DNA of 64,000 nucleotides from Cyanothece sp. BG0011 (GTDB taxonomy: Bacteria > Cyanobacteriota > Cyanobacteriia > Cyanobacteriales > Microcystaceae). Location of the stretch: NCBI RefSeq assembly GCF_003013815.1, contig NZ_PRLH01000137.1, positions 62,001 to 126,000 of the forward strand, given 5' to 3'. A program made the position numbers and the translations under genes. Below, piece by piece: positions 10,905-45,272 of the stretch. Below the pieces are notes generated by a model that was not told the origin of the DNA, did no database searches, and was given only the letters and a program-made list of their open reading frames with translations. Position 1 is the stretch's first letter. Each line of letters begins with the position of its first letter.

Positions 10905-11678
10905 ATGACGGCTGAAAGTCTTTCTTTAACAGAACAATCACATAAAGCTAGTCCTTCCCATGACTATCATCCGATTATTATTCGCCTAGAAGAGATTACA
11001 AAAACCTATGGCAGTGGAAATACAAAGGTAAAAGCTTTAGATAACATTAATTTAAGCATCGAAAAAGGAGAATATTGCACCATTATGGGGGCATCTGGGT
11101 CAGGAAAATCCACCCTTATGAATATTTTAGGGTGTCTGGATCGACCCTCTTCGGGACGGTATTATTTAGATAACGTGGATGTGTCGGGATTATCCGATTC
11201 TCAATTAGCCACTGTTCGTAATGGGAAAATTGGTTTTGTTTTTCAACAGTTCCATTTATTACCTCAAATGACAGCCTTAGAAAACGTCATTTTACCGATG
11301 ATCTATGGAGAGGTCTCCCCCACAGAACGACGCGATCGCGCCCTAGAAGCCTTAGAAAAAGTAGGATTAGGCCACAGAGTTAATAATAAGCCTAATCAAC
11401 TCTCAGGGGGGCAACAACAACGGGTGGCCATTGCCCGCGCTATGGTTAACCAACCAGTTTTACTCCTGGCCGATGAACCCACAGGGGCCCTAGACTCCCA
11501 AACCACAGAGGAAGTATTAGACATCTTTGAAAGCCTTCATCAATCAGGGATCACTGTAGTGGTGGTGACTCACGAGGCAGAAGTCGCCCGTCACTCTCAG
11601 CGAGTCATCTGGTTTAGAGATGGTCAAGTGATTCATCCCCAACTAGACCCCCAGGATTTACATTCTGTCGTTGATTGA
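10905..11678 (+). CDS. ABC transporter ATP-binding protein, MacB/DevA/LolD type
   Basis: An ATPase subunit of the lipoprotein/macrolide exporter (MacB-like) class. It has Walker [11 protein letters not shown]-loop [18 protein letters not shown], signature LSGGQQQR and Walker [15 protein letters not shown]. The start is taken at ATG 10905; the longer frame begins TTG ATT. In Nostoc, DevA of this class works with DevB/DevC to export envelope glycolipids. Here no membrane-fusion or permease gene is adjacent, so partners must be encoded elsewhere. Confidence 0.93.
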
Positions 11679-11682
11679 ACAG

Positions 11683-11850
11683 GGTGTAGGGTGTGGGGTG
11701 TAGGGTGTAGGGAGCAGAGGAAGATTAAAACTCTTGCCTCTTGCCACCCCCTCTAACTCCCCCTTTTGTGAGGGGGAGAACCCTTGCCACCCCCTCTAAC
11801 TCCCCCTTTTGTTAGGGGGAGAACCCTTGCCCATTCCCTATTCCCTCTCC
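11683..11850. repeat. Low-complexity tandem repeats
   Basis: Within the 312-base gap 11679-11990, GTGTAGGGTGTGGGGTGTAG units are followed by two near-identical copies of a roughly 45-base unit (about 11737-11780 and 11785-11829) built on CCCCCTCTAACTCCCCCTTT and AGGGGGAGAACCCTTGCC. These are typical non-coding repeats. The rest of the gap is AT-rich leader of the gene at 11991; I see no ORF. Confidence 0.75.
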
Positions 11851-11990
11851 CGAAGGGAGGTTAAGAAATGTTGCGAAAAAAAAGAAAATCAAGGATAATA
11901 GAGAGTTAAGATATTTATACTTTTGTATATCAATTTTTAAAATACTTGATTTTTCAACCCTTTTGAATTCAGAGGCATTAGTAACAAGTT

Positions 11991-13709
11991 GTGACTTGGC
12001 AAACCATAGAATCATATGACCCTAGTTCTAATATCCAACAGCAAAAACGCTATGATGCTGCTGCGATCGCCCGTTTTTACCGCCGACATCCGTGGGAAGT
12101 GATTCAACGGGCTATTACCATTATCTGGTCCTTTGGCTGGTTTTTAATCCATCTTCAATGGGATCACTGGTTTAACCCTGATAAAGACAATAAACAGAAA
12201 TGTGCGACCGAATTAAGGCAAATTCTCACCCGTTTAGGACCAACCTTTATCAAAGTGGGCCAAGCCTTATCCACTCGCCCCGACTTGATCCGTCCCGACT
12301 TCCTTGATGAATTGATCAAGCTACAGGATCAACTCCCCCCCTTCGATAACAAAATCGCTTTTTCGATTATAGAGACATCTCTAGGGACAAGTATCAATCA
12401 AGCCTATCGAGAAATTTCGCCCAACCCCGTCGCAGCAGCCAGTTTAGGGCAGGTTTACCGCGCGGTGTTGCATACCGGCGAAGAAGTGGCCGTTAAAGTC
12501 CAACGGCCCAACCTCAGACCCATTTTAACCCGTGATTTGTTCTTAATGCGGTGGGCAGCCTGTCAGTTTGGTCGCTTTTTACCCCTTAACTTAGGTCATG
12601 ATTTAACCCTGATTATCGATGAATTTGGCGTTAAATTATTTGAAGAAATTGACTATGTGAACGAAGGGAGAAACGCCGAGAAATTTGCAGCCAACTTTAG
12701 AGAAGACGATGACGTGAAAGTTCCCGTCATTTACTGGTCCTATAGTAGCGATCGCGTTTTAACCTTAGAGTGGATACAGGGCTATAAATTAACTGATACC
12801 GACAAAATTAGAGCAGCCGGACTCGATCCTTATGCGATCGTTAAAATTGGGGTCACCTCTGGGTTAAGACAACTCCTAGAACATGGATTTTTCCACGCCG
12901 ATCCCCATCCTGGGAACCTTTTTGCCACCCTTGATGGCCGCATGGCCTTTATTGACTTTGGCATGATGGATCAGTTAGAAGAAGAAACCAAAGAAACCAT
13001 TGCCAGTTCAGTGGTACAGTTAATCAATGAAGATTATGATGCCTTAGCCAGGGATTTTGTGCAGTTAGGCTTTTTGACCCCTGACACCGATATTGAACCC
13101 ATTATTCCCGCCTTAGAACGGGTGTTAGGCAATGCCATCGGGCAGAGTGTGGGGAACTTTAACTTTAAAACCATCACCGATGATTTTTCGGAATTGATGT
13201 ATGAATATCCGTTCCGGGTTCCGGCGAAATTTGCCTTAATTATTCGTTCATTAATTACTCAAGAGGGGTTAGCGTTGAGTCTTGATCCTGACTTCAAAAT
13301 TGTGGAAGTAGGTTATCCTTATGTTGCCCGACGCTTACTAACTGGAGAGTCTCCCCAACTGAGAAGAAGACTGATAGAAGTCTTGTTTAAAGATGGAAAA
13401 TTCCAGTGGCAACGGTTAGAAAATATGATCCGTATTGCCCGATCAGATGAACAATTTGATCTACTACCAACGGCACAATTAGGATTACAATATTTGTTGT
13501 CTGATGAAGGAAGATATTTGCGTCATCAATTATTGTTAGCGTTGACCGAAGATGATCGCTTACACACTGAAGAAGTTCAAAGAATTTGGGCTTTAATTAG
13601 TGACGATCTCCAACCTCAACAATTATTTGGTGTTGCTATCAAGGCATTTCGACAATTTTCTACTGCAGGAGTTGCTGCCATTCTTCCCAACACAGCCGAG
13701 ATCAACTAA
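11991..13709 (+). CDS. ABC1/UbiB-family atypical protein kinase
   Basis: A 572-residue UbiB/ABC1K (AarF) protein, of the group that supports quinone and prenyl-lipid metabolism in membranes and, in plastids, plastoglobules. Visible motifs are the family-specific KVGQALSTRPDLIRPDFLDEL, the Ala-rich AAASLGQVYRAVL loop in place of the kinase Gly-loop, the VAVKVQRP lysine, the catalytic-loop HADPHPGNLF and the metal-binding IDFGMM. A GTG start at 11991 opens the frame. The gene at 13738 follows closely and may be co-transcribed. Confidence 0.93.
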   Translation: MTWQTIESYDPSSNIQQQKRYDAAAIARFYRRHPWEVIQRAITIIWSFGWFLIHLQWDHWFNPDKDNKQKCATELRQILTRLGPTFIKVGQALSTRPDLIRPDFLDELIKLQDQLPPFDNKIAFSIIETSLGTSINQAYREISPNPVAAASLGQVYRAVLHTGEEVAVKVQRPNLRPILTRDLFLMRWAACQFGRFLPLNLGHDLTLIIDEFGVKLFEEIDYVNEGRNAEKFAANFREDDDVKVPVIYWSYSSDRVLTLEWIQGYKLTDTDKIRAAGLDPYAIVKIGVTSGLRQLLEHGFFHADPHPGNLFATLDGRMAFIDFGMMDQLEEETKETIASSVVQLINEDYDALARDFVQLGFLTPDTDIEPIIPALERVLGNAIGQSVGNFNFKTITDDFSELMYEYPFRVPAKFALIIRSLITQEGLALSLDPDFKIVEVGYPYVARRLLTGESPQLRRRLIEVLFKDGKFQWQRLENMIRIARSDEQFDLLPTAQLGLQYLLSDEGRYLRHQLLLALTEDDRLHTEEVQRIWALISDDLQPQQLFGVAIKAFRQFSTAGVAAILPNTAEIN

Positions 13710-13737
13710 TTTATCATTCATTTAATCCCTGCCTTTT

Positions 13738-14100
13738 ATGTACTATTTTCCTCAGCCTCCTTATTTCCTAATTGCTGCTGGCCTATTTATTGGTCTTACC
13801 TGTGGTTTAGCCTTTGAAGCCACCCTAAAATCTCAAGTTAAGGTCATGTTGAAAAAGCCAGCCGATCAGATGCTAAAAGGTTCAGGGTTACAGTTACCCT
13901 TTCTTGGTATTTGTGTTGGTATTTGTGTGTTTTTATCGGCCGGTTTAGAGATTTTTCTCTTTGATCGTTGGCTATGCTATGCCATTTCTTTACCCATGAC
14001 TATCTTTATTGCTGCTTTAGTTTGGATTCAACTCGAAAGCGTATTAAAACAGTTAAAAGAAGGGGGTTCAAAAGCCATTGATTTAGATGCCTTTTATTAA
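13738..14100 (+). CDS. Small cyanobacterial membrane protein
   Basis: 120 residues with three hydrophobic segments (about 8-28, 53-75 and 79-100) and an acidic C-terminal end (AIDLDAFY). It starts 28 bases after the ABC1-like kinase gene, with which it is probably co-transcribed, and ends at a terminator-like palindrome. No known family is recognised. Confidence 0.7.
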   Translation: MYYFPQPPYFLIAAGLFIGLTCGLAFEATLKSQVKVMLKKPADQMLKGSGLQLPFLGICVGICVFLSAGLEIFLFDRWLCYAISLPMTIFIAALVWIQLESVLKQLKEGGSKAIDLDAFY

Positions 14101-14125
14101 TTAATCAGATTCCTAATCTTACTAT

Positions 14126-14145
14126 GGGTCAACAACTGTTGACCC
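14126..14145 (+). terminator. GGTCAA/TTGACC-family palindrome, copy 3, with T-tract
   Basis: GGGTCAACA and TGTTGACCC form a 9-bp stem around AC, followed directly by TTATTTTTTGG. This is a good Rho-independent terminator for the gene ending at 14100 and supports a 3'-end role for the whole palindrome family. Confidence 0.75.
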
Positions 14146-14205
14146 TTATTTTTTGGAATTGCATATTTACAAGATGATTTCGGTTACAGGTAATGTAAAA
14201 ACCCT

Positions 14206-14233
14206 CTCCCTGCTCCGGCGCTCCCTGCTCCCC
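14206..14233. repeat. CTCCCTGCTCCGGCGCTCC repeat, copy 1
   Basis: CTCCCTGCTCCGGCGCTCC followed by CTGCTCCCC. Close copies lie inverted at about 35245-35273 and again near 45486-45512. This is a dispersed non-coding repeat, here between two genes. Confidence 0.65.
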
Positions 14234-14275
14234 TACTATTTTAAATCATCCTATAATTGATCCAAACCCCATTTT

Positions 14276-14629
<354 letters not shown>

Positions 14630-14707
14630 TCACTAACAATTTTATTATTCTAACATCGAGAGACTATAATAGATAATCAGATTGTGTAATCAGAAAATCA
14701 ATTAATT

Positions 14708-14854
14708 ATGAATCAAGGTAAAATTGTCGCGATTATCACTGGTGCTATTTCTATTTTTCTCGCTGTTGCTTATTTAATTGTTGTACAATTATTGGACTTT
14801 CGGGGGGAAATGATACCCGCACCAACCTTTGACATGATTTTCAATCTTTTTTAA
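14708..14854 (+). CDS. 48-aa single-helix membrane protein
   Basis: A short frame starting MNQGKIVAIITGAIS has one membrane helix (residues 6-29) and ends LDFRGEMIPAPTFDMIFNLF. The order of polar start, helix and Pro-rich tail, and the isolated position between two genes, look like a genuine small cyanobacterial protein. I recall similar short hypothetical proteins in related genomes, but cannot name a function. Confidence 0.6.
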   Translation: MNQGKIVAIITGAISIFLAVAYLIVVQLLDFRGEMIPAPTFDMIFNLF

Positions 14855-14967
14855 ATTATCAATAATTGTAACAGTTAACAGGCATTTCCTAGAAGTTATC
14901 AAACCTTTCTCGTTACACTAGATCATTATAGCTTCGCACCTATCGCTTTTTTGGCTAATTTGTTAAT

Positions 14968-17900
14968 ATGATTCCTTTGCAACTTACCCTGAAAAACTTT
15001 TTAAGTTATCGAGAAACTGTCCTTGATTTTCGGGGGTTACATACCGCTTGTATTTGTGGGGCAAACGGTGCCGGAAAATCATCTTTATTAGAAGCAATAA
15101 CCTGGACAATTTGGGGGAAAAGTCGAACCGCTTCCGATGAAGATATTATTCATACGACGGCCGACTATGTTAGGGTTGATTTTGAGTTTATTTCTTATGA
15201 ACAAAGTTATCGAATTATTCGTAGTCGTCAACGAGGGAAAAGTCCAACCTTAGAGTTTCAAGTTAATAGCGGAAATAACTTTATCTCTTTAAGTGGCAAA
15301 AGGATTAAAGATACTCAAGATATTATTATTGCTACATTGAAATTAGATTACGATACCTTTATTAATTCAGCTTATTTACGTCAAGGTAGGGCTGACGAAT
15401 TTATGTTAAGAGGGGCTGCGGATAGAAAAAAAGTCTTAGCTGAATTATTAAAATTAGAGCAATATCAAATATTAGCCGATAAAGCCAAAGATTTATCTAA
15501 ACAGTATAAAATACAATCTGAACAAATAAAAATAAACTTAGATAAAACTAGCCAGCAAATAGAAGAACAAAAAGATATTAAGGTTCAGGAAAAAACCATT
15601 AACCAAGAGATTAATAAATTACAAAAATCACAACAATTAGATAGAGAAAAATTACAAACAATCAAACAAAAAGATAGTCATCGTCAAGCTTGGTTAGAAC
15701 AATTTACATGGCATCAAAATAAACAGCAAAGCTTAAACAAAGAAAGAAAACAATTAGAACAACAACAGTCTCAATTAATTCATAAAATTCAGGAATCAGA
15801 AAAACTAATTAGTCAAGAACAAGAGATTATTGAAAAATACGAAGAGTTACAACTGCTACAAAAACAAGAAGAAACCTTATCTCATCAATTCCAACTTTCT
15901 CAAGACATTCAACAGAAAAAACAAAAAATTGAACAAGAAATATTCAAAAAAAATAATCAATTACAATTACAAATTCGTCAACAACAAACTCGTTTAGAAC
16001 AATTAGCAGAACAAGAAGAAGATTTACAAAAAATTATTAGTCAATCTGAAGACATTAAAGCTGCTGTCCAAAAATTAAACCATCATCGAGAACGGTTACA
16101 AGAATTAGATAACTTACAACATACAGTAACACCTTTATTGAAACAAAAGCAAATCTTAGAAACGGAATTAGAAAAAATAAAAGCTAATTTAGAAGCTAAA
16201 TTAGAACAATTTGAAACCTTAGAAAGTCAGTATCATCAAGAGTTAGAAAAAATACCCGAAAGACGACAACTACTGATAGAATTAGATCATAAAATACAAG
16301 AAATTGATAATCAAAAAGTCTATCAAAAAAGAGTTAAAGAAAAATCACAAGAGAGAAAACTAACACAAGAAAAATTAATTGTTAATCAGCGTAATTATAC
16401 CGAAAAATAGAAGAATTACAACAGAAGATAAACTTATTAAATAATCCAGAATCCACTTGTCCTTTATGTGAGCAAGACTTGGATGAAAACCGCCGTCATC
16501 ATGTCATTGATAAGACCAATAAACAACAAGAAAAACTTCAACAACAGATTTGGTTTTTACAAGAAGAATTATCGGTTATTAAACGGGATATTAAATCATT
16601 AATTAGTGAGGATAAACAATTAGAAAATCAGCTAAAATCTTCAGGAAGTGTACAACAAGAATTTTCTCGGATAGAAGCGCAACTTGATCAAGCAGGGGAA
16701 GTTAAAATTAAGTTTAAAAAATTACTAAAAGAAAAAGAAAATATTAACAATTTAATTAATACAGAAACCTATGGAATGAATATACAAAATGACATTAAAA
16801 TAATCAATAAAAGATTAGAAAAACTGAATTATGATGAACAAACCCACGCCTTAGCAAGGGGAGAAGTTGAACGGTTACGGTGGGCAGAAATAAAACAAGC
16901 AAGAATAGAAGATGCTATTCGTAATCAGAAAAAAATTGAACAACAAAAACCTGAAATAATCGCTAAACTTGAACAACTGGAAACAGAAAAAAATAACTTA
17001 GAAACGAATTCAGAATTAAAACAAGAAATTAATAAAATAGAAGAAGAATTAAACAATTTAAACTATGATCGATCCTATCATCAACGGATTTCTGATTATA
17101 TTCGTAAATCTCAATCCTGTGTGGTTGATTATCAGAAATTACAAGGGGTAAAACAAGACTATCCTCAACTAAAAGAACAGTTAAAAACCATTGAAACTAA
17201 AATTAATAATAATCAAGAAGAACAAACAGATACAGAAAAATTTATACAACAGTTATCCAGTCAATTAGAAACCATTGAAGATCATAGTCAAGAAATTGAA
17301 ACCTTAGAAACCCAACTAAAAACACAAAGAGAAAAATTAGATAATTTACTCGCCCAAAAAGGAAGAATAGAACAATCTTTATCTCAACTGGAAACCCTAA
17401 AACAAGACCAAGAAAACCAAGAAAAAGAATATAATCAAGTTCGTAAACAATATCGGGTTCATACAGAATTGAGCAAAGCTTTTAGTAAAAATGGAATTCA
17501 ATTATTAATGATTGAAAATGTTTTACCGCAGTTAGAAACAGAAACGAATCACATTTTATCAAGATTAACAGGGAATCAATTTCATATTAGATTTGTAACA
17601 CAAAAAGCAGGAAAAAGTGGCAGTTCTCGGAAAAAAAATGTTAAAATGATTGATACTTTAGATATTATTATTTCTGATGCCAAAGGAACCCGTGCTTATG
17701 AAACTTATTCAGGGGGTGAAGCATTTAGGATTAATTTTTCTGTTCGCTTAGCCTTAGCTAAATTATTAGCACAACGGGCAGGAACTACCTTACAAATGTT
17801 AATTATTGACGAAGGGTTTGGGACTCAAGATGCACAAGGATGTGAACGGTTAGTGGCAGCTATTAATGCCATTTCTTCTGAATTTTCTTGTATTTTAGCG

Positions 17901-36109: not shown

Positions 36110-37894
36110 CTAAATAGCGATACTCTGGGGAATATGAGAAGGCTGTAAATAAACGTAAGGCGTTTTACCTTGTTGTTTCAGGTTATTGTTACGTTCTTTC
36201 AACTTAGATTCAATCCCTCTCAACTCTTTTTTAAAGTCCTTAAAAGCCTGTTTATCCCCCTCTTGTTTGAAGGGGTTAGGTAAGGTTAAAAGACTCTTGC
36301 TAGTAATGGGAGGAAGAATGGTTAAGACTTTAACTAAAACAATTTGTTTAATGGTTTGTGTTCGTCCGGGTAACCATTTTAAAAGTATTTTTTCTCGTTC
36401 TTCTTCACTCTCAACAGTATAAAGAGAAGAGAAGGGTTCATACAACGCAAATGGCATATTTGCTACCCATGCACCATAATCATACTGTCCGAAATTAACC
36501 GCAGCGTGTTGCGTGGTTGCTAAGAAAATCATTGTTGTGACAATCTCAATTAAATCGTCAACATTATTGAGTTTTCCAGTGAGTTGAGACGCTTTTTCTG
36601 GGGGAAGTAATCCTTTAATCGTTCCTGCGTCGGGGGAAATTAATTCATTTTTCCAAGCTTGTAATTGGTCGTCATTTTCAACCCCTTGATTATCTTTGTA
36701 GTGATTTTTAATGACATCACTAACATACTTTTTCGTCGCATTCCACATCAACAGCGCATCATCTTTATAGTAGTAGTTAGGTAAGTCTTGAACCTCACGG
36801 GATTCTAAACTATAGGGTAAGGCTTTTTTGTAGAATTCCCAAGGTTTACCTTGATAGTTAGTCACTAACCCTTTACCCCAATAAGCTCGACTTAATAATT
36901 CATTGGAGCTAGTGTAACCTAAAGCCCCCGTAGCATCAAAAAAGCCACCTCTTCCTAAGAAAACAGAACGCGCCATATAATTAATAGCTAAGGTGTCAAA
37001 AAAGTGGGGTTTCAGCAGTTGATAAAGAATGTGATCGGGGGTTAAAGTTCGATAGGTACTAACGGTACAAACTTCAATAACTAAATGAGTATCCAGTAAA
37101 TGAGCAATAATCCCTTGATAGGCAATATCAGTGGCAGAAACAGCTAACTTAGCAGCTTTCCATTCCGCTTTAGAAGATTTAGGAGTGAAAATTTCTGGAA
37201 TTTCAGGGTGAGCATTGGGATCATGTTTCTGCTTAATTTTGATAGCAACGGGTAGTAACTCTTCTTTCTCATTGAGATAAAATAAACACAAAGGAGAGCA
37301 GGTATAACGCCCTAATTGATCTTCTCGCGCAGAATCAATAATGTCGTCAAAAATTTCGTAATCAACTAGATAGAGTTTATCCTGATCGAACGCTGTTTTA
37401 ACAGAAAAATTATCACCTAAATAGGGTTTAAGATGGTCTTCTGTTACAGGAAATTTACTACCAACTCCGATATCTTCTTGTTTACATTTTCTCATCAAAA
37501 CAGGGTTAAGACCTTGTAAAAATTGCCGACCAAATTGTATATCTTCTTCCCACTTATCGGCGATTAAAGGTTTAGGTAAAAGGGTAAAAGGTCTGAAAAA
37601 ACCAGTTAAATCTTTTAACTTTTCCCAGTAATCGGTAGGTGCTAACGATGCAATTAATCCAAAATCAGCAACCCCTTTAAATTCAATTCCATGTTTAGCA
37701 AAATAACCAAAAATATGAGAAATTTGCGCTAATAATAAACTTAAGACAGAAATTAGAGCCGTAAAATCAAAAAAGAAGATTTTAAAAGGACTAAATCCTT
37801 CTCCTTTCGGAAGTCCAATGACGTAAGGTGGTGCGCCAGGATAACGCACTTTTGGATCAACCCATTGAAAGGTATCTTTAGGGTTACTGGTCAT
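36110..37894 (-). CDS. Lipoxygenase (iron-dependent fatty-acid dioxygenase)
   Basis: 594 residues from the ATG at 37894 (MTSNPKDTFQW), preceded by AAGGAG; the frame to 37921 adds nine residues. It shows the lipoxygenase core without a PLAT domain: FLQGLNPVLMR, the first iron histidines in AHLLDTH (His265, His270), LKPHFFDTLAIN, then QHAAVNFGQY (His463, Asn467), and the C-terminal iron-ligand isoleucine (Ile594). It should add O2 to polyunsaturated fatty acids to give hydroperoxides. Regio- and stereospecificity cannot be read here. It is the last gene of the minus-strand cluster, separated from the other lipoxygenase by a 900-base repeat-rich gap. Confidence 0.92.
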   Translation of the reverse strand: MTSNPKDTFQWVDPKVRYPGAPPYVIGLPKGEGFSPFKIFFFDFTALISVLSLLLAQISHIFGYFAKHGIEFKGVADFGLIASLAPTDYWEKLKDLTGFFRPFTLLPKPLIADKWEEDIQFGRQFLQGLNPVLMRKCKQEDIGVGSKFPVTEDHLKPYLGDNFSVKTAFDQDKLYLVDYEIFDDIIDSAREDQLGRYTCSPLCLFYLNEKEELLPVAIKIKQKHDPNAHPEIPEIFTPKSSKAEWKAAKLAVSATDIAYQGIIAHLLDTHLVIEVCTVSTYRTLTPDHILYQLLKPHFFDTLAINYMARSVFLGRGGFFDATGALGYTSSNELLSRAYWGKGLVTNYQGKPWEFYKKALPYSLESREVQDLPNYYYKDDALLMWNATKKYVSDVIKNHYKDNQGVENDDQLQAWKNELISPDAGTIKGLLPPEKASQLTGKLNNVDDLIEIVTTMIFLATTQHAAVNFGQYDYGAWVANMPFALYEPFSSLYTVESEEEREKILLKWLPGRTQTIKQIVLVKVLTILPPITSKSLLTLPNPFKQEGDKQAFKDFKKELRGIESKLKERNNNLKQQGKTPYVYLQPSHIPQSIAI

Positions 37895-38085
37895 AGTTTT
37901 AATTACTCCTTTTAATTGCAATTACAATTCATCTACAGTCTGAATACCTGATTTTCCGTAATGACTCGTTATTAACTGCCCCGACTTTAGAAATTGACTG
38001 AAAATATCTGCCTTAGATTCAATAAATCTCTGCAAAGATAGAAAAGTTTTATAATTATTAATCAAAGGACAAATATTAAGTAAGA

Positions 38086-38200
38086 TTAGGGAACGATAAA
38101 AGATGTCTTCTCCTTATCAGCTTGGACATCATTAACCCAAGAATGCCATAAAGTGATGTGATAACTAGCATAACGACATAACTTTTTAAGATTGTTGCTC
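38086..38200 (-). pseudogene. Fragment of a second copy of the TTR-domain lipoxygenase
   Basis: On the minus strand the frame reads NLKKLCRYASYHITLWHSW then VNDVQAD, closely matching NLKEFCRYVVYHVTLWHSW, VNDSQAD around the iron His574 and Asn578 of the protein at 38827-40845. It is cut at its 5' side where a MITE-like end begins (38204) and soon hits a stop. So a second gene of this type once existed here. Confidence 0.75.
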
Positions 38201-38203
38201 TGA

Positions 38204-38231
38204 TAAGTACCTGGACAAAAATAAACGTTAC
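38204..38231. repeat. Solitary end of the MITE-like element
   Basis: 28 bases beginning TAAGTACCTGGACAAAAATA are identical, inverted, to 45529-45556, the right end of the element at 45426-45556. No opposite end is seen nearby, so this is a truncated copy. It abuts the lipoxygenase fragment. Confidence 0.75.
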
Positions 38232-38826: not shown

Positions 38827-40845
38827 TTAAATGTTGATTAGGGCGCGAATATTACCAATATCGTAGTTCAAATCAGCAAACTGATCCTTGTAACCTGATA
38901 ATGTGATTCTGAACTCTTCAGGAATATCGTCATCCTCATTTTTGAGAATATAGCCATATTTAATGGCAGTTAGAACATTAACCATGTAGATCACATTGGT
39001 TGCTTCTAAGATAGGTGGGGCAATGTTAGGATCATCTTCACTACCAAAACTTCCATTGCGTAATGCTAAGGAACTGTAGAAAATATCCCCTCCTTCATCA
39101 GCCTGAGAATCATTAACCCAAGAATGCCATAAGGTGACGTGATAGACGACATAACGACAGAATTCTTTTAAGTTTTGGATATCTGTCTCATTGGGTTTAT
39201 CTGAGGTGGTAATGGGTCGAGTGGCTTTTACTGTACCATTAACTGTCGCTCTAGGAATATCTGCTTTATCAAGCTCATTGTAATCATACCAATCGTAATC
39301 AGGATCGGGAGCAGAGTCACAGGGTTCATGAGGTTCATAAGCAACACTGTGTTCAACAATATCATCAGAAAAGCGACGAATTTCTATCCATTCTTTGAGG
39401 ATTTCTTCTTGATAATCTTCAAAAAATTCATCAATATATTCTGTTAATACCTGCCAATAAAGATTAGCAATTTTGGCAAAAGTATGGGTCGCACAAACAG
39501 GTTGACGAGGTTTCCAACCTTTCCAATCATAGGTAGCCATACTTTCTTTACAAATTTGTACCACTGAAGCTGGTGTTAAGGGTCCATTAGTCGTAACTAA
39601 ACCCACTGTGGGGGATACTAATACTTCATCCGCTCGTTGATTTATATTAACTAAACTTTTGAGGTGAGGAGCTAAGATCAAACGAACGGGATTATTGCGT
39701 AAGTTACGAAAAGCAGCGATGGTGTATTGTTCCATCTGTAAATGAGCTTTAATATAATGCTCAATCATTTCTGCGGCAAAGAAGCTATTAGTCCGATAAA
39801 TGCGTTTCGCTTGGTTCCATTTTTCCCCATCATTGGGCGTATAAGTAACCGCTTCTTTTAAGGGAGAATGGGGGGCAATAGAATCAGGATAACGACTTTG
39901 AACTTTAATGGCTGTCGGAACTAAATTATCTCCTTTTAATTCAAAAAATGCCTCGACATTATTGAGGTCGTGGTCATCATCTTTTTCGTAGTCATTCCAA
40001 TTAAATTCGGTCTTGAAGAGATTAGGATTGGTTTTATTTCGCTTCAATAAACGGGGGTTCATCCCATTCAAAACCCGTGACACAAAATATTCATCGCTAC
40101 GGCTATAACCTGGCTTGTTTTGGTCTAATTTGATGGTTAAATTAGGGGGATAAGCTGCTTGAATTTCTGATAAAGTCAGTTCGTTGGGGTTGAGGGTATG
40201 AGTAATAACGTGCTTAGCTTTAATGGGAACTAAACTACTGGCTGCATCATATCCAGCAAGGGTACGACCCACAGAATAATCATCGGGTGTCCCTTCTAGT
40301 TCACTGAAAAATAAACGAGCAAAATGACTATCGGGTTTGTATAACCAGTAAGGCACTGAACAAGTCCCAAAATCATATTCTTTTTGCTTGACATTATCTG
40401 GCCCTTTGATAATATAGGCAATCCGATAGGTAGGAACAGGCTGATCATCACTATCAAAAGCAATGCGATTATCTAACAATCTTAACTCTAAATCAGGGGT
40501 ATCAAGAAACCCTGCACTTTTGGGATCATAGTAAATGATAAATTTCCCATCATAATCAGTGATTCCTGTCCCTAAATAATCCCCAGGTCTGCCAATATCC
40601 CTGTCCCATAATTCTAACTGAATATTGTGTAAGGGTTTATTAGTATCACTGAAAACTAACTTTCCAGTGACTTTGTTGAGTTGATCTAGGGGTTTATTAA
40701 ACTTCTGTTCTTTAAGTTGAACAATACTTTTTTTAGCGGCTTTTTCGGCTTTCTTTTTCCCTAAAGCACTATCAGCCACTTTAATCCCTAAAACTTGCTT
40801 GAATTCACCGACAATTTTGCCGATTTTGCTTTCATTTTCTGCCAT
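38827..40845 (-). CDS. Divergent lipoxygenase with an N-terminal transthyretin-like domain
   Basis: 672 residues. Residues ~58-125 (VTGKLVFSDTNKPLHNIQLEL, W-DRDIGRPGDYLGTGITDYDG) look like a transthyretin-like beta-sandwich. The rest follows lipoxygenase landmarks: SRVLNGMNPRLLKR, then HYIKAH (His363, His368), HSWVN (His574, Asn578) and a C-terminal isoleucine (Ile672). All five iron-ligand positions are thus conserved although the sequence is far from the 36110 enzyme. It should be a fatty-acid dioxygenase, but isomerase or lyase activity is possible. Start at ATG 40845 after AAGGAG. The P450 gene ends 79 bases upstream. Confidence 0.8.
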   Translation of the reverse strand: MAENESKIGKIVGEFKQVLGIKVADSALGKKKAEKAAKKSIVQLKEQKFNKPLDQLNKVTGKLVFSDTNKPLHNIQLELWDRDIGRPGDYLGTGITDYDGKFIIYYDPKSAGFLDTPDLELRLLDNRIAFDSDDQPVPTYRIAYIIKGPDNVKQKEYDFGTCSVPYWLYKPDSHFARLFFSELEGTPDDYSVGRTLAGYDAASSLVPIKAKHVITHTLNPNELTLSEIQAAYPPNLTIKLDQNKPGYSRSDEYFVSRVLNGMNPRLLKRNKTNPNLFKTEFNWNDYEKDDDHDLNNVEAFFELKGDNLVPTAIKVQSRYPDSIAPHSPLKEAVTYTPNDGEKWNQAKRIYRTNSFFAAEMIEHYIKAHLQMEQYTIAAFRNLRNNPVRLILAPHLKSLVNINQRADEVLVSPTVGLVTTNGPLTPASVVQICKESMATYDWKGWKPRQPVCATHTFAKIANLYWQVLTEYIDEFFEDYQEEILKEWIEIRRFSDDIVEHSVAYEPHEPCDSAPDPDYDWYDYNELDKADIPRATVNGTVKATRPITTSDKPNETDIQNLKEFCRYVVYHVTLWHSWVNDSQADEGGDIFYSSLALRNGSFGSEDDPNIAPPILEATNVIYMVNVLTAIKYGYILKNEDDDIPEEFRITLSGYKDQFADLNYDIGNIRALINI

Positions 40846-40924: not shown

Positions 40925-42331
40925 TCACCCCTTAGCTTGAACAGCCAAGGGAAAACAAGCTCCATTCAAGATTTCAGGGGATCTCGTTCCTAATTGGAAA
41001 GAGGCTTTATAGGGGGTGGTTTCATCGAACTTTGTCTGGACTTGAGAGACAAAGGTTGCTAGGGCTAATTTGATGATAAATAATCCAAAATATCTGCCGA
41101 CACAAATTCTTTCACCCCGTCCAAAGGGGAAAAAATAGTCGCTATCGAGTGGGTTGGCAGCACGAGTGGCTTCGTCCCAACGCTCAGGATTATACACCAA
41201 CGGATCGGGCCAATAACTAGCATTTCGTTGCAAACACCAACTACTAATAAATAGGGGTGTATCCGGGGGAATTTGATAACCCGCAAAAGCAATGGTTTTT
41301 TCCTTATGGGTATTGCGGGTAAAAAATGCCACTGGGGGTAAGAGTCTCAAAGATTCTAAAAGACATTGTTCTAAGAGTAAACATTGCTCTAAATCTTCGA
41401 GGGTGAGAGAATCCCCCGGTAGACTCTTAACTACATTTTCCAAACGCGATCGCCATTGAGGATTTTGATCGAGTAAGTAGAGGGTATTGGTTAACCCTCC
41501 TGGGGTTGAAAAATTGGCACTGAAGTAAATTTCAGCAAACACATGAGCGATCGCTTGTTCGGATAATTGGGAGTCCCCTTGGCGAATCATCAAGCGGAGT
41601 AAATCAGGCCCGGTGGGGTCATTTTTCGCTTCTTGAACGATCTGGTTAAACAGGGCAAACCAGCGCTGACTAGCTGCTTGATACTCAGGTTCTGTGGGTT
41701 CTTCGGGATAGGAACCGCGAGACTGAAGACGCTGATCGGCGATTTTCGCCATCATTAAGTAATCTTCAAAAGCTTGATCCCCTAAAACTTGCCCCACCGT
41801 AGCACGGGCAAATCCGTCAAAGATTAGCCTTTTCATGGCAGGGAAAAAGGGAAATGAGCCTTGAGTTGAGCGAGTCACCAGGTTTTGGATGGTTTCGCTA
41901 AACTGATGCTTAAGAATGGGAACTTGCGCCCCTAACCATTCCTGAACATCGCCTCTGCTTAAGGGATGATTTTGGCGAATAAAGCTCCAATCTTTGTCTT
42001 GATGGGGAAAAAGAAAGAGACTATCTTCGGTCATCATCGGGCTTGCAGCCTGTTTGAGTTTATCCTTATAGAATAATTCTTGCCGAGAGATCAGCACTTC
42101 CTCAATCAATTGGGGATCGTTAACCACTAAAGCGGGTTGACTCAATAGCCAAACTTGCGTGACTCCCCCATACGTTTCCCCATACTTGGCACAGACTTCC
42201 CAAGGCAAGGCTTTTTTGAAGTCTAGAGCATTACCAAAGGGAAAACGGGGAGGAGGCCCAGGAATCCCCTCAAAGGGCTTCATTTTCTGCCCATGTATCA
42301 GCTTAAAAAGACTATGCAGTAGATCAACCAT
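40925..42331 (-). CDS. P450-fold heme protein with atypical I-helix (A)
   Basis: 468 residues with the P450 frame: proline-rich FEGIPGPPPRFPFGN, K-helix ESLR (Glu326-Arg329), meander NPERWDEA, and heme loop FGRGERICVG with Cys410. The I-helix reads YFSANFSTPGGLTNT (about 269-283), so the usual acid-threonine pair is replaced by Phe-Ser. The same kind of change marks P450s that rearrange hydroperoxides without O2 or reductase (CYP74 allene oxide synthases, hydroperoxide lyases). With two lipoxygenases alongside, a fatty-acid hydroperoxide substrate is likely but inferred. Confidence 0.87.
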   Translation of the reverse strand: MVDLLHSLFKLIHGQKMKPFEGIPGPPPRFPFGNALDFKKALPWEVCAKYGETYGGVTQVWLLSQPALVVNDPQLIEEVLISRQELFYKDKLKQAASPMMTEDSLFLFPHQDKDWSFIRQNHPLSRGDVQEWLGAQVPILKHQFSETIQNLVTRSTQGSFPFFPAMKRLIFDGFARATVGQVLGDQAFEDYLMMAKIADQRLQSRGSYPEEPTEPEYQAASQRWFALFNQIVQEAKNDPTGPDLLRLMIRQGDSQLSEQAIAHVFAEIYFSANFSTPGGLTNTLYLLDQNPQWRSRLENVVKSLPGDSLTLEDLEQCLLLEQCLLESLRLLPPVAFFTRNTHKEKTIAFAGYQIPPDTPLFISSWCLQRNASYWPDPLVYNPERWDEATRAANPLDSDYFFPFGRGERICVGRYFGLFIIKLALATFVSQVQTKFDETTPYKASFQLGTRSPEILNGACFPLAVQAKG

Positions 42332-42370: not shown

Positions 42371-42396
42371 TAGGGGTCAACGGCCGTCAACCCCTA
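42371..42396. repeat. GGTCAA/TTGACC-family palindrome, copy 5
   Basis: TAGGGGTCAACGG and CCGTCAACCCCTA form a stem with two mismatched pairs, overlapping the stop codon of the P450 gene at 42394. This is the least perfect copy. Confidence 0.7.
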
Positions 42397-43713
42397 GCGA
42401 TCGTACCCAACGACAAAACGGGTGGGGATATAGCCTTGATACTTAACTTTGCCTTCCTCCCCAGGAAGCAATTTTAACCCTGGCCGCAACAGGATTTGTT
42501 TAACCACTTCAGGAACCACAACCCCGGCAATGTGTTCACCGCCACAGGTATGACTACCGTAACCAAAGTGCATATAGTTATACTGAGGACGGTCAATGGA
42601 AAATTCATCAGGATCTTTAACAATAGCCGGATCAAACATGGCTGAACCTACCCCCGCTAAAACAACGCTGCCACGAGAAATGATCGTTTCTCTGGGGGTT
42701 CCGGCCGCTAGGGTATAATCAGCTTCACAAAAACGTACCAGAAAGGGACTAAAAGGATTAAAACGAACGGCTTCCCAAACATACTTATCAAACGTCTCGT
42801 CATCATTAGCTTTCGCTGCTTCTAAGGCTTTTTGAAAGATTTCAGGACGGTTGAGTAATTGGTCTATGGCCTGAGTAATAACTTGTGCAGTTCCTTCAAT
42901 ACTACCTACTAAGAAAATCATCATGTGGGCAATAATTCTCTCTTTCGAGAAGGGAATATCGGGAGGAAATTTAAGATTAGCTAACCGTGTAAAAACATCT
43001 CCAGGTGCAGTGTAATTCTCTTCCGTTGTTTGAGGTTGGAAAAACTGGGATAGATAAGTGAAAAAGTTGGTGGATTTTTCCGTTTCTTTAAATTTCTTTT
43101 CCTCAAATAAATCAGTAAGATAAGCCCGCATCTCGTTACTTGATTGAACCGAAGCCTCATGAATTTTAGGATCGTTTGTTAAGTTTCTAAACATATCGTC
43201 TTGGGTTGTTTTTGCCCAACGATACATCGTATCTAAATCCGGCCCAGGAAAGCCAAAGTAATCACCACAAAGTCTGATGGGAACGAATTTCGCTAGGTCA
43301 TGAACCACCTCAATTTTTTGGTTTGTTGCTGATTTATCTAAGGCAGATTTGGCGATTTCTCCTGCCATTTTCCTAACCCTTGGCAAATCCTCCAGGGGTA
43401 ATACGGATCTCATTATTGACTTTTCACGCCAGTTATGATCTGAATTATCTCTGGCTAACATACAAGGGCCAAAAACGGGGTCCATTTTCGGAGCAAATGC
43501 TCTCACAGAGAAGAATTCTGAGCGAGATAAAACCTCTTGAACATCGGGAAATAAACTAACTAAAACAAATTTAGGTGTAATAAAAATAGGACGGTTTTCT
43601 CTTAATTCTTTAAATAAACCTGACCAATCAGTCCAAACTCCCTGATTAATAACTTTAACTTTATCTTCAAGGTTTTCCGTGGGAATACTATCATACCTTT
43701 CTAGGTAAGACAT
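42394..43713 (-). CDS. P450-fold heme protein with atypical I-helix (B)
   Basis: 439 residues, clearly P450: K-helix EAVR (Glu314-Arg317) and heme loop FGYGSHTCGG with Cys390. The N terminus is short and soluble, with no membrane anchor. The I-helix reads VGSIEGTAQ: the acid (Glu273) is present but the catalytic Thr position is Gly274. The protein differs strongly from its neighbour at 40925. FGxGxHxCGG is also seen in fungal and bacterial fatty-acid peroxygenase or diol-synthase P450 domains, from memory. Peroxide-driven chemistry on lipoxygenase products is a reasonable guess. Confidence 0.85.
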   Translation of the reverse strand: MSYLERYDSIPTENLEDKVKVINQGVWTDWSGLFKELRENRPIFITPKFVLVSLFPDVQEVLSRSEFFSVRAFAPKMDPVFGPCMLARDNSDHNWREKSIMRSVLPLEDLPRVRKMAGEIAKSALDKSATNQKIEVVHDLAKFVPIRLCGDYFGFPGPDLDTMYRWAKTTQDDMFRNLTNDPKIHEASVQSSNEMRAYLTDLFEEKKFKETEKSTNFFTYLSQFFQPQTTEENYTAPGDVFTRLANLKFPPDIPFSKERIIAHMMIFLVGSIEGTAQVITQAIDQLLNRPEIFQKALEAAKANDDETFDKYVWEAVRFNPFSPFLVRFCEADYTLAAGTPRETIISRGSVVLAGVGSAMFDPAIVKDPDEFSIDRPQYNYMHFGYGSHTCGGEHIAGVVVPEVVKQILLRPGLKLLPGEEGKVKYQGYIPTRFVVGYDR

Positions 43714-43781: not shown

Positions 43782-44177
43782 CTAAGAAACCGCATCTACA
43801 TCATGAATACATAGAACAACAATTCTATAGTCATCCTCTACTTTACGCAGTGTATAACTAGCTCCAAAAGTAGCTAATATCTGTCCATCTTTGCTGTAGC
43901 GAGTAGCTACGGTACTAACAATTCCTACACTGTCACTCAGTAATTTCACGTTTAAAGGACCGGTTTCAGTTCTGTCGTAGTTCTGTTTCTTTAAATCAGC
44001 CATAACCTTCCTAAAAACCAGCCATAACCCTAACCGATTTTTGATGGGGGTAACTCTTTGTGTAATGAGAATTGATGGATAGTGATAAAAAGGAAATAAG
44101 AGTCTTGGTTGAAGTTTGGGAATTATATCTCTATATTGCTCAATTTTGCTTCTTAATTGCTCTGCTTGATCTGTCAT
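43782..44177 (-). CDS. Small NTF2/SnoaL-like protein
   Basis: 131 residues. PFYHYPSILITQRV, a central helix (LWLVFRKVMADLKKQNYD), SVGIVSTVATRYSKDGQIL and GASYTLRKVEDDYRIVV follow the cone-shaped NTF2-like fold. Such proteins may bind or convert small hydrophobic molecules (SnoaL-type cyclases, isomerases) or serve as accessory proteins. Here it lies between the DUF2235 hydrolase and the P450 gene on one strand, 68 bases from the latter, so it may act on or carry an oxylipin intermediate. No catalytic residues are asserted. Confidence 0.7.
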   Translation of the reverse strand: MTDQAEQLRSKIEQYRDIIPKLQPRLLFPFYHYPSILITQRVTPIKNRLGLWLVFRKVMADLKKQNYDRTETGPLNVKLLSDSVGIVSTVATRYSKDGQILATFGASYTLRKVEDDYRIVVLCIHDVDAVS

Positions 44178-44258: not shown

Positions 44259-45272
44259 TCAATTTTGGAAAATTTTATTGAGTATTTTTTCCAGATTTTT
44301 CGGTCGATAGTCTGCAAATTGTTTCAGTCTTTCAAGGGTACTATCATGGAGTTCTTCTAGATCATCCCCGACCTCACGGAGCTTAATTCCTGCTAATTTA
44401 TAGAACCCTGGATCATTGTTAAATTGGCATTGGTGATCCGGTTCTACCCCTGTGATAATCGCACTGATGTCAAATTCTAATCCTAATCCTAGTTCTCCAA
44501 TGGAATCAATCATCCATTTTAAAGCCCCGTCGGAAAGCCCTCGATAAGCCTCTGTTCCACCACCAACGCAACCATGATCTCCAGGAAACCATTTTTGCAA
44601 AAGTTGTTGATTTGGGGCGTGGGGATTTTTGCTCATCAGCGTCACATCAAACACTTCGCGAATTTCGTCGATCGCTACGGCGTGTATGGCATTCTGGACT
44701 TCTCGGTTTAATTTTGTGTCATAAAAGGCATAACGCCGATGTAACCAAGGTTGAAAGATTTTGAATAAGGGTAGAATGGGAATTCCTAAAGCGCCTACCG
44801 TATCAAAACAACCGATTAAGGTGATGGGAACGCGATCGCCGTAAGTTCTGCGGTATTCAACGGCCTCATTATCTGTAGGTTTAATATCTCGGTTGCGATA
44901 CAGTTCATAAGCTTCTGCTGCGTTGGTCACATAATGACGTTTTACTAGCCCTGAACAATAAATCATTCCTGCTAGACTTCTCACGGTATATGCACCCCGA
45001 CTAAAGCCAAACAGATAAATTTCATCCCCTGGAACATAGTTCAGACAAAGAAACCGATAACCATCTTGAATATTGCGATCAATGCCAACTCCGGCTGCAC
45101 CTCCTGATAGTTTTTGACTTTCGGTGCCAATTCCGGCATCGTAAAACACAATTTGTTGTGTCCCATCATCGGCGACGGGTTTAATGCCTTCAGTGAGTTT
45201 AACCACATTACTAGGATAAGAACTTTCTAAATCTTGCCAAGTTCCGTCACAACAAACTATCAGTCTTTTCAT
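44259..45272 (-). CDS. DUF2235 alpha/beta-hydrolase, possible lipase
   Basis: 337 residues with the DUF2235 start MKRLIVCCDGTWQD, then VFYDAGIGTE, GGAAGVGIDRNIQDGYRFL and the nucleophile elbow LFGFSRGAYT (Ser91). FDTVGALGIP and WFPGDHGCVGGG are also typical. DUF2235 members include phospholipase effectors (Tle1-like) and uncharacterised hydrolases. As the first gene of the cluster that leads to lipoxygenases, it could release polyunsaturated fatty acids from membrane lipids. That role is inferred from position. Confidence 0.88.
   Translation of the reverse strand: MKRLIVCCDGTWQDLESSYPSNVVKLTEGIKPVADDGTQQIVFYDAGIGTESQKLSGGAAGVGIDRNIQDGYRFLCLNYVPGDEIYLFGFSRGAYTVRSLAGMIYCSGLVKRHYVTNAAEAYELYRNRDIKPTDNEAVEYRRTYGDRVPITLIGCFDTVGALGIPILPLFKIFQPWLHRRYAFYDTKLNREVQNAIHAVAIDEIREVFDVTLMSKNPHAPNQQLLQKWFPGDHGCVGGGTEAYRGLSDGALKWMIDSIGELGLGLEFDISAIITGVEPDHQCQFNNDPGFYKLAGIKLREVGDDLEELHDSTLERLKQFADYRPKNLEKILNKIFQN

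Follow-up and report, generated by a model that had tools for sequence, protein, structure and literature searches.

The closest described relative of the protein considered here is CspLOX1, the 668-residue lipoxygenase of PMC5437038 and PMC10177866 whose structure is PDB 5EK8. The entry, released in 2015, is titled as a 9R-lipoxygenase from Cyanothece PCC 8801, and the review PMC10889196 cites Newie et al. (J Lipid Res 2016) for the structure. In summarising that study, the review attributes membrane binding to the helix at the N-terminus of CspLOX1 and support of catalysis to its beta-sandwich; it also reports that the beta domain is irrelevant to membrane binding. The sandwich of 5EK8 has been described as PLAT-type (PMC10177866) and as eukaryote-like (PMC10889196). 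Two other groups are relevant for comparison. The classical PLAT lipoxygenases (soybean LOX-1, 5-LOX and coral 8R-LOX) share with our protein the catalytic fold, the iron ligands and a sandwich before the catalytic domain, but their sandwich belongs to another family, and structural alignments give only about 15–19% identity. Cyanobacterial catalase–lipoxygenase fusions and mini-lipoxygenases (the NspLOX/AnaLOX and NsLOX types), at about 30% identity, have a catalase-like, a LamG or no N-terminal domain.

We analysed a 64,000-nucleotide stretch of the Cyanothece sp. BG0011 genome (hereafter, the window). It encodes a 672-residue orthologue of CspLOX1 at 38827..40845 (−); the coordinates given in a preliminary description of this DNA were correct, and the gene reads from 40845 to 38827 on the minus strand, with no comparable open reading frame on the plus strand, which is not coding there. 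Among all PDB sequences the best match was 5EK8 (E = 8.9e-302, 63% identity over residues 8–672). A genome-derived protein, L019, matched the 5EK8 chain end to end (E = 0), which opened the CspLOX1 locus to comparison. Given the orthology, the enzyme and its architecture of N-terminal helix, beta-sandwich and catalytic domain are already known. Nor is the domain pair unprecedented, as the same pair was crystallised as 5EK8. The preliminary description's characterization of the sequence as very divergent holds when plant and animal enzymes are the reference; CspLOX1 and other cyanobacterial orthologues, the latter up to 88% identical to the window protein, are much closer. No family for the lipoxygenase was found in NCBIfam or PHROGs.

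The catalytic domain spans residues 198–672 (38830..40254, −), as supported by the Pfam Lipoxygenase model (PF00305; E = 3.1e-10, 39.7 bits, above the cut-off), ligand mapping and fold matches. All five iron positions named in the preliminary description are present: H363, H368, H574, N578 and I672 each have a single counterpart in CspLOX1 (H359, H364, H570, N574 and I668, respectively), and the three histidines are invariant across 19 homologues. Superposition of a full-length model (mean pLDDT 71; loops weakly predicted) gave Z = 45.4 over 660 residues against 5EK8 (rmsd 2.7) and Z of about 20–25 against other lipoxygenases, bearing out the lipoxygenase fold expected for the remainder of the protein. 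The window protein combines two hallmarks of the lipoxygenase superfamily, the five ligand positions (His, His, His, Asn/His and the carboxylate of a C-terminal Ile) and the catalytic fold; the third, fatty-acid dioxygenase activity, is predicted. In a tree, lipoxygenases with this N-terminal module, the window protein and CspLOX1 among them, fall together on one side of a branch supported at 100/100; the sister clade of their catalytic domain comprises cyanobacterial catalase-lipoxygenases, mini-lipoxygenases and a LamG-lipoxygenase. We assign the window protein to the iron lipoxygenases of the CspLOX1 subfamily, as regards both architecture and enzyme class, with a probability of roughly 0.85. 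By orthology to CspLOX1, it would insert O2 into polyunsaturated fatty acids, perhaps while these are still esterified in membranes.

The low Pfam score of the catalytic domain might instead reflect a catalytically dead lipoxygenase retained for another role. This is highly improbable: every ligand and pocket residue is intact, close orthologues lack any inactivating change, and CspLOX1 is an active 9R-lipoxygenase (PMC5437038; title of 5EK8). We dropped this reading on the strength of the conserved ligand and pocket positions. Separately, a 40%-identical TTR-lipoxygenase subfamily (L022, L023 and L024) has a C-terminal Ser in place of Ile/Val and a His at the Asn ligand position.

Two pocket residues distinguish the window enzyme from CspLOX1: Ala405, at the Coffa site, replaces Gly401, and Met621 replaces Ile617. 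By the Coffa-site rule, alanine there favours S products. Ala occupies this site in the branch that holds the window protein and in most members elsewhere, Gly in the CspLOX1 branch and the 40% subfamily. The CspLOX1 G401A variant makes some 11-HPODE (PMC5437038). Because of the two substitutions, we predict, at about even odds, a product other than pure 9R, richer in S and/or bis-allylic 11-hydroperoxide.

The main departure from published accounts concerns the domain in front of the catalytic one. The preliminary description had staked its proposal on a beta-sandwich at residues 58–125; one is predicted at 57–164, in the place that PLAT occupies in classical lipoxygenases, between the N-terminus and the catalytic domain. 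The domain (residues 57–165; 40351..40677, −) is supported by profiles, models and fold search, and the model gives it seven strands (57–65, 76–81, 92–95, 101–106, 119–130, 136–147 and 156–164). Folded alone with 19 homologues, it again had seven strands, with a mean pLDDT of 85.7. The Pfam TTR-52 model (PF01060) matched the whole protein with E = 0.0016 and the excised domain with E = 2.3e-4; the score of the window domain (22.2 bits) lies below the curated cut-off of 24.9, which is passed by homologue L010 (25.5 bits) and by CspLOX1 (25.9). Each of the 19 homologous domains matched TTR-52 (best E = 1e-6), and PLAT models gave no match with any of them up to E = 10; nor was Pfam C2 found in any of the 19 members.

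Structure comparison gave a similar picture. In fold searches (Foldseek, VIA-align) the domain model retrieved 5EK8 first, followed mainly by TTR-52, HIUase/TTR-related proteins, transthyretin, the TTR-like domain of carboxypeptidase D, Cna-B pilin and prealbumin-fold domains. It aligned with TTR-52 (3uaf) at Z = 8.9 (rmsd 3.4, 93 residues), with E. coli YedX at 8.1, with the carboxypeptidase D domain at 7.7 and with human TTR at 7.6. These matches are modest (Z of about 7 to 9, Foldseek TM near 0.45), and beta-sandwich folds resemble each other. With TTR-52-like modules (PF01060; 3uaf) the window domain shares the beta-sandwich fold and the signature WDxD...D.LG...TD..G.F; it differs in being bacterial and fused to an enzyme, and in the longer last strands of the model (119–130 and 136–147).

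The alternative is that the sandwich is a strongly diverged PLAT or C2 domain, and that its likeness to TTR reflects convergence among small beta-sandwiches. Its position in the chain is identical to that of PLAT, 5EK8 has been grouped with PLAT-type enzymes (PMC10177866) and its strands are said to resemble the eukaryotic sandwich (PMC10889196). However, profile–profile comparison (hhalign) aligned the domain with TTR modules of non-lipoxygenase proteins at E = 1.4e-13 and 98% probability, and with PLAT at E = 0.16 and 0.4%. Control searches of the PDB gave reciprocal results. A profile built only from TTR modules of non-lipoxygenase proteins matched 5EK8 best (1.2e-8) and then TTR-52 (0.0035). 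In contrast, a PLAT profile built from cyanobacterial proteins recovered the domain in 11R-, 8R- and 5-LOX as well as in alpha-toxin and polycystin, but missed 5EK8. The motif WDxD...D.LG also occurs in C2 domains (rabphilin and Doc2b, E = 0.13–0.19), but C2 matches in the PDB are local, covering about 25–35 residues around it. Neither a PLAT nor a C2 chain appears among the best 50 structural matches, although PLAT may still stand lower in the list. We consider a diverged PLAT or C2 domain very unlikely.

Profiles, fold search and reciprocal controls agree that the sandwich is TTR-like rather than PLAT, as the preliminary description had proposed, with the sequence profiles giving an answer independent of the fold search. 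By profile, the sandwich shares homology with bacterial TTR-52-like modules rather than with PLAT, and the identification applies to the whole CspLOX1 subfamily. Profiles and models together show a predicted architecture of a helical extension, a transthyretin-like (prealbumin-fold) sandwich and a lipoxygenase catalytic domain with its complete set of iron ligands. Since the literature calls the domain PLAT-like or eukaryote-like, the TTR assignment amounts to a reclassification, which we did not find stated in the literature searched; a search mostly outside subscription papers returned nothing relevant that joins lipoxygenases with transthyretin-like domains. A solved lipoxygenase structure thereby receives a corrected domain assignment, with a different module in the usual place of PLAT. 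If confirmed on the crystal coordinates, this would mean that the two-domain lipoxygenase plan arose at least twice, and would separate what a sandwich is needed for (support of catalysis) from the roles that belong to PLAT only (membrane and Ca binding).

The sandwich is preceded by a helical extension (residues 1–47; 40705..40845, −), with helices at 2–24 and 27–38 in the model, at low pLDDT; a membrane-binding role for it derives from CspLOX1 (PMC10889196). The amphipathic character of residues 1–47 was not above that of shuffled sequences (803 of 2,000 scored as high). In the 19 homologues, the helix is less conserved (mean pairwise identity 0.42) than the TTR domain (0.646) or the catalytic domain (0.645). 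The matching conservation of the TTR and catalytic domains is consistent with the role in activity reported in PMC10889196.

The preliminary description had suggested that the TTR module offers a route to lipid. In such a reading the module would stand in for PLAT as a lipid- or ligand-binding domain, directing the enzyme to lipid or to Ca-dependent membrane sites through the conserved acidic residues D81, D83 and D/E89. All 12 module sequences that we compared keep the equivalents of D81, D83 and D89, and, as with PLAT, some fusion partners act on lipophilic substrates (four genomes have the module fused to carotenoid oxygenases, and one to a class 3 lipase). C. elegans TTR-52, a named homologue, reportedly binds phosphatidylserine. 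Against this, many carrier proteins have no evident lipid link, and the review PMC10889196 places membrane binding of CspLOX1 in the N-terminal helix and reports that the beta domain does not matter for it. We consider a lipid-binding role unlikely, and the suggested route to lipid unsupported. The best reading of the module, by orthology to CspLOX1, is as a structural support of catalysis and not a membrane anchor: the N-terminal helix would dock the enzyme to the membrane, and the TTR module would pack on and support the catalytic domain without binding lipid itself.

To survey the module more widely, we ran a profile against 386 genomes of the phylum and searched 196 genomes of the order for TTR-52. 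In four genomes (L063, L093, L095 and L096) the module lies N-terminal to RPE65-type carotenoid oxygenases, in three of them with a TerB-like stretch in between. In one genome it is fused to the class 3 lipase (L067:388-1680, −). It also occurs on its own in short proteins, and within several large ones to which no role is assigned. PLAT was detected in 5 of the 196 genomes of the order, only in other proteins and in no lipoxygenase. The partners with lipophilic substrates echo those of PLAT, but such cases are few, and partners of other kinds are frequent. The TTR-52-like module might be a cyanobacterial equivalent of PLAT, an interchangeable front domain, joined separately to lipoxygenases, carotenoid oxygenases and lipases, that places or activates enzymes on membrane-derived substrates, possibly via the conserved acidic (Ca-binding) loop; we regard this broader proposal as doubtful. 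We rejected a restriction of TTR modules to lipid enzymes, as in most carriers other than lipoxygenases the partner is unrelated or uncharacterised.

Upstream of the lipoxygenase, on the same strand and with gaps of about 60–80 bp, lie four further genes: a DUF2235/Tle1-like alpha-beta hydrolase and candidate lipase (44259..45272, −; PF09994, E = 7.8e-80; nucleophile motif GFSRG), an NTF2-like protein (43782..44177, −; DUF6841-like below the Pfam cut-off, with synteny as further evidence), cytochrome P450 A (42394..43713, −; PF00067, E = 1.1e-15), which is syntenic with TTR-lipoxygenases including CspLOX1, and cytochrome P450 B (40925..42331, −; PF00067, E = 4.4e-51), 79 bp from the lipoxygenase. 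P450 B has intact heme-Cys and I-helix Thr motifs, and its orthologue is adjacent in Anabaena sp. 4-3. The CspLOX1 locus has in common with the window the whole lipoxygenase architecture, the iron ligands, and upstream orthologues of P450 A and of the hydrolase (80% identical); the window differs in the extra P450 (B) and the NTF2-like gene between hydrolase and lipoxygenase. Across 17 genomes whose TTR-lipoxygenase reaches at least 55% identity, the DUF2235 gene was upstream in 11 (two of them broken copies) and a P450 was present in 11, the CspLOX1 locus being included in both counts. No P450 was detected at the other six loci, one of which is cut at a contig end; locus L052, one of the 17, ends right at the lipoxygenase gene. 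Judging by gene adjacency, fatty acids may be freed by the hydrolase, and the P450s may act on the hydroperoxide or product. A lipase–P450–lipoxygenase oxylipin pathway is the simplest reading of the cluster, and we give it an even chance; the conserved genes make a concrete candidate pathway for cyanobacterial oxylipins. The I-helix of P450 A reads EGT in the window and in L006, L009 and L051, and ETT or DTT in other orthologues; EGT suggests a possible alteration in O2 or peroxide chemistry.

A second lipoxygenase is encoded downstream (36110..37921, −; PF00305, E = 1.4e-68), with 603 residues from a TTG start, although the start codon is uncertain. It has no TTR or PLAT match and falls on a long branch in a separate clade, distant from the TTR-type gene; its nearest relatives are cyanobacterial lipoxygenases of 700–750 residues, at about 30% identity. 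Between the two genes lies a 34-codon remnant of a duplicated TTR-type lipoxygenase (38113..38214, −; 62% identity, E = 3.7e-9), matching residues 551–584 around the third Fe histidine. Like this remnant, a decayed C-terminal fragment of the same lipoxygenase at L057:4376-4576 lies downstream of an intact gene; such fragments also occur at places without one (L058:9443-9664 and L059:8683-8949), together pointing to repeated duplication and loss. In L005, a 924-residue LamG-domain lipoxygenase and a mini-lipoxygenase stand in tandem (11074-13848 and 13968-15335, +) and adjoin a TTR-lipoxygenase, so that three lipoxygenase architectures follow one another in succession.
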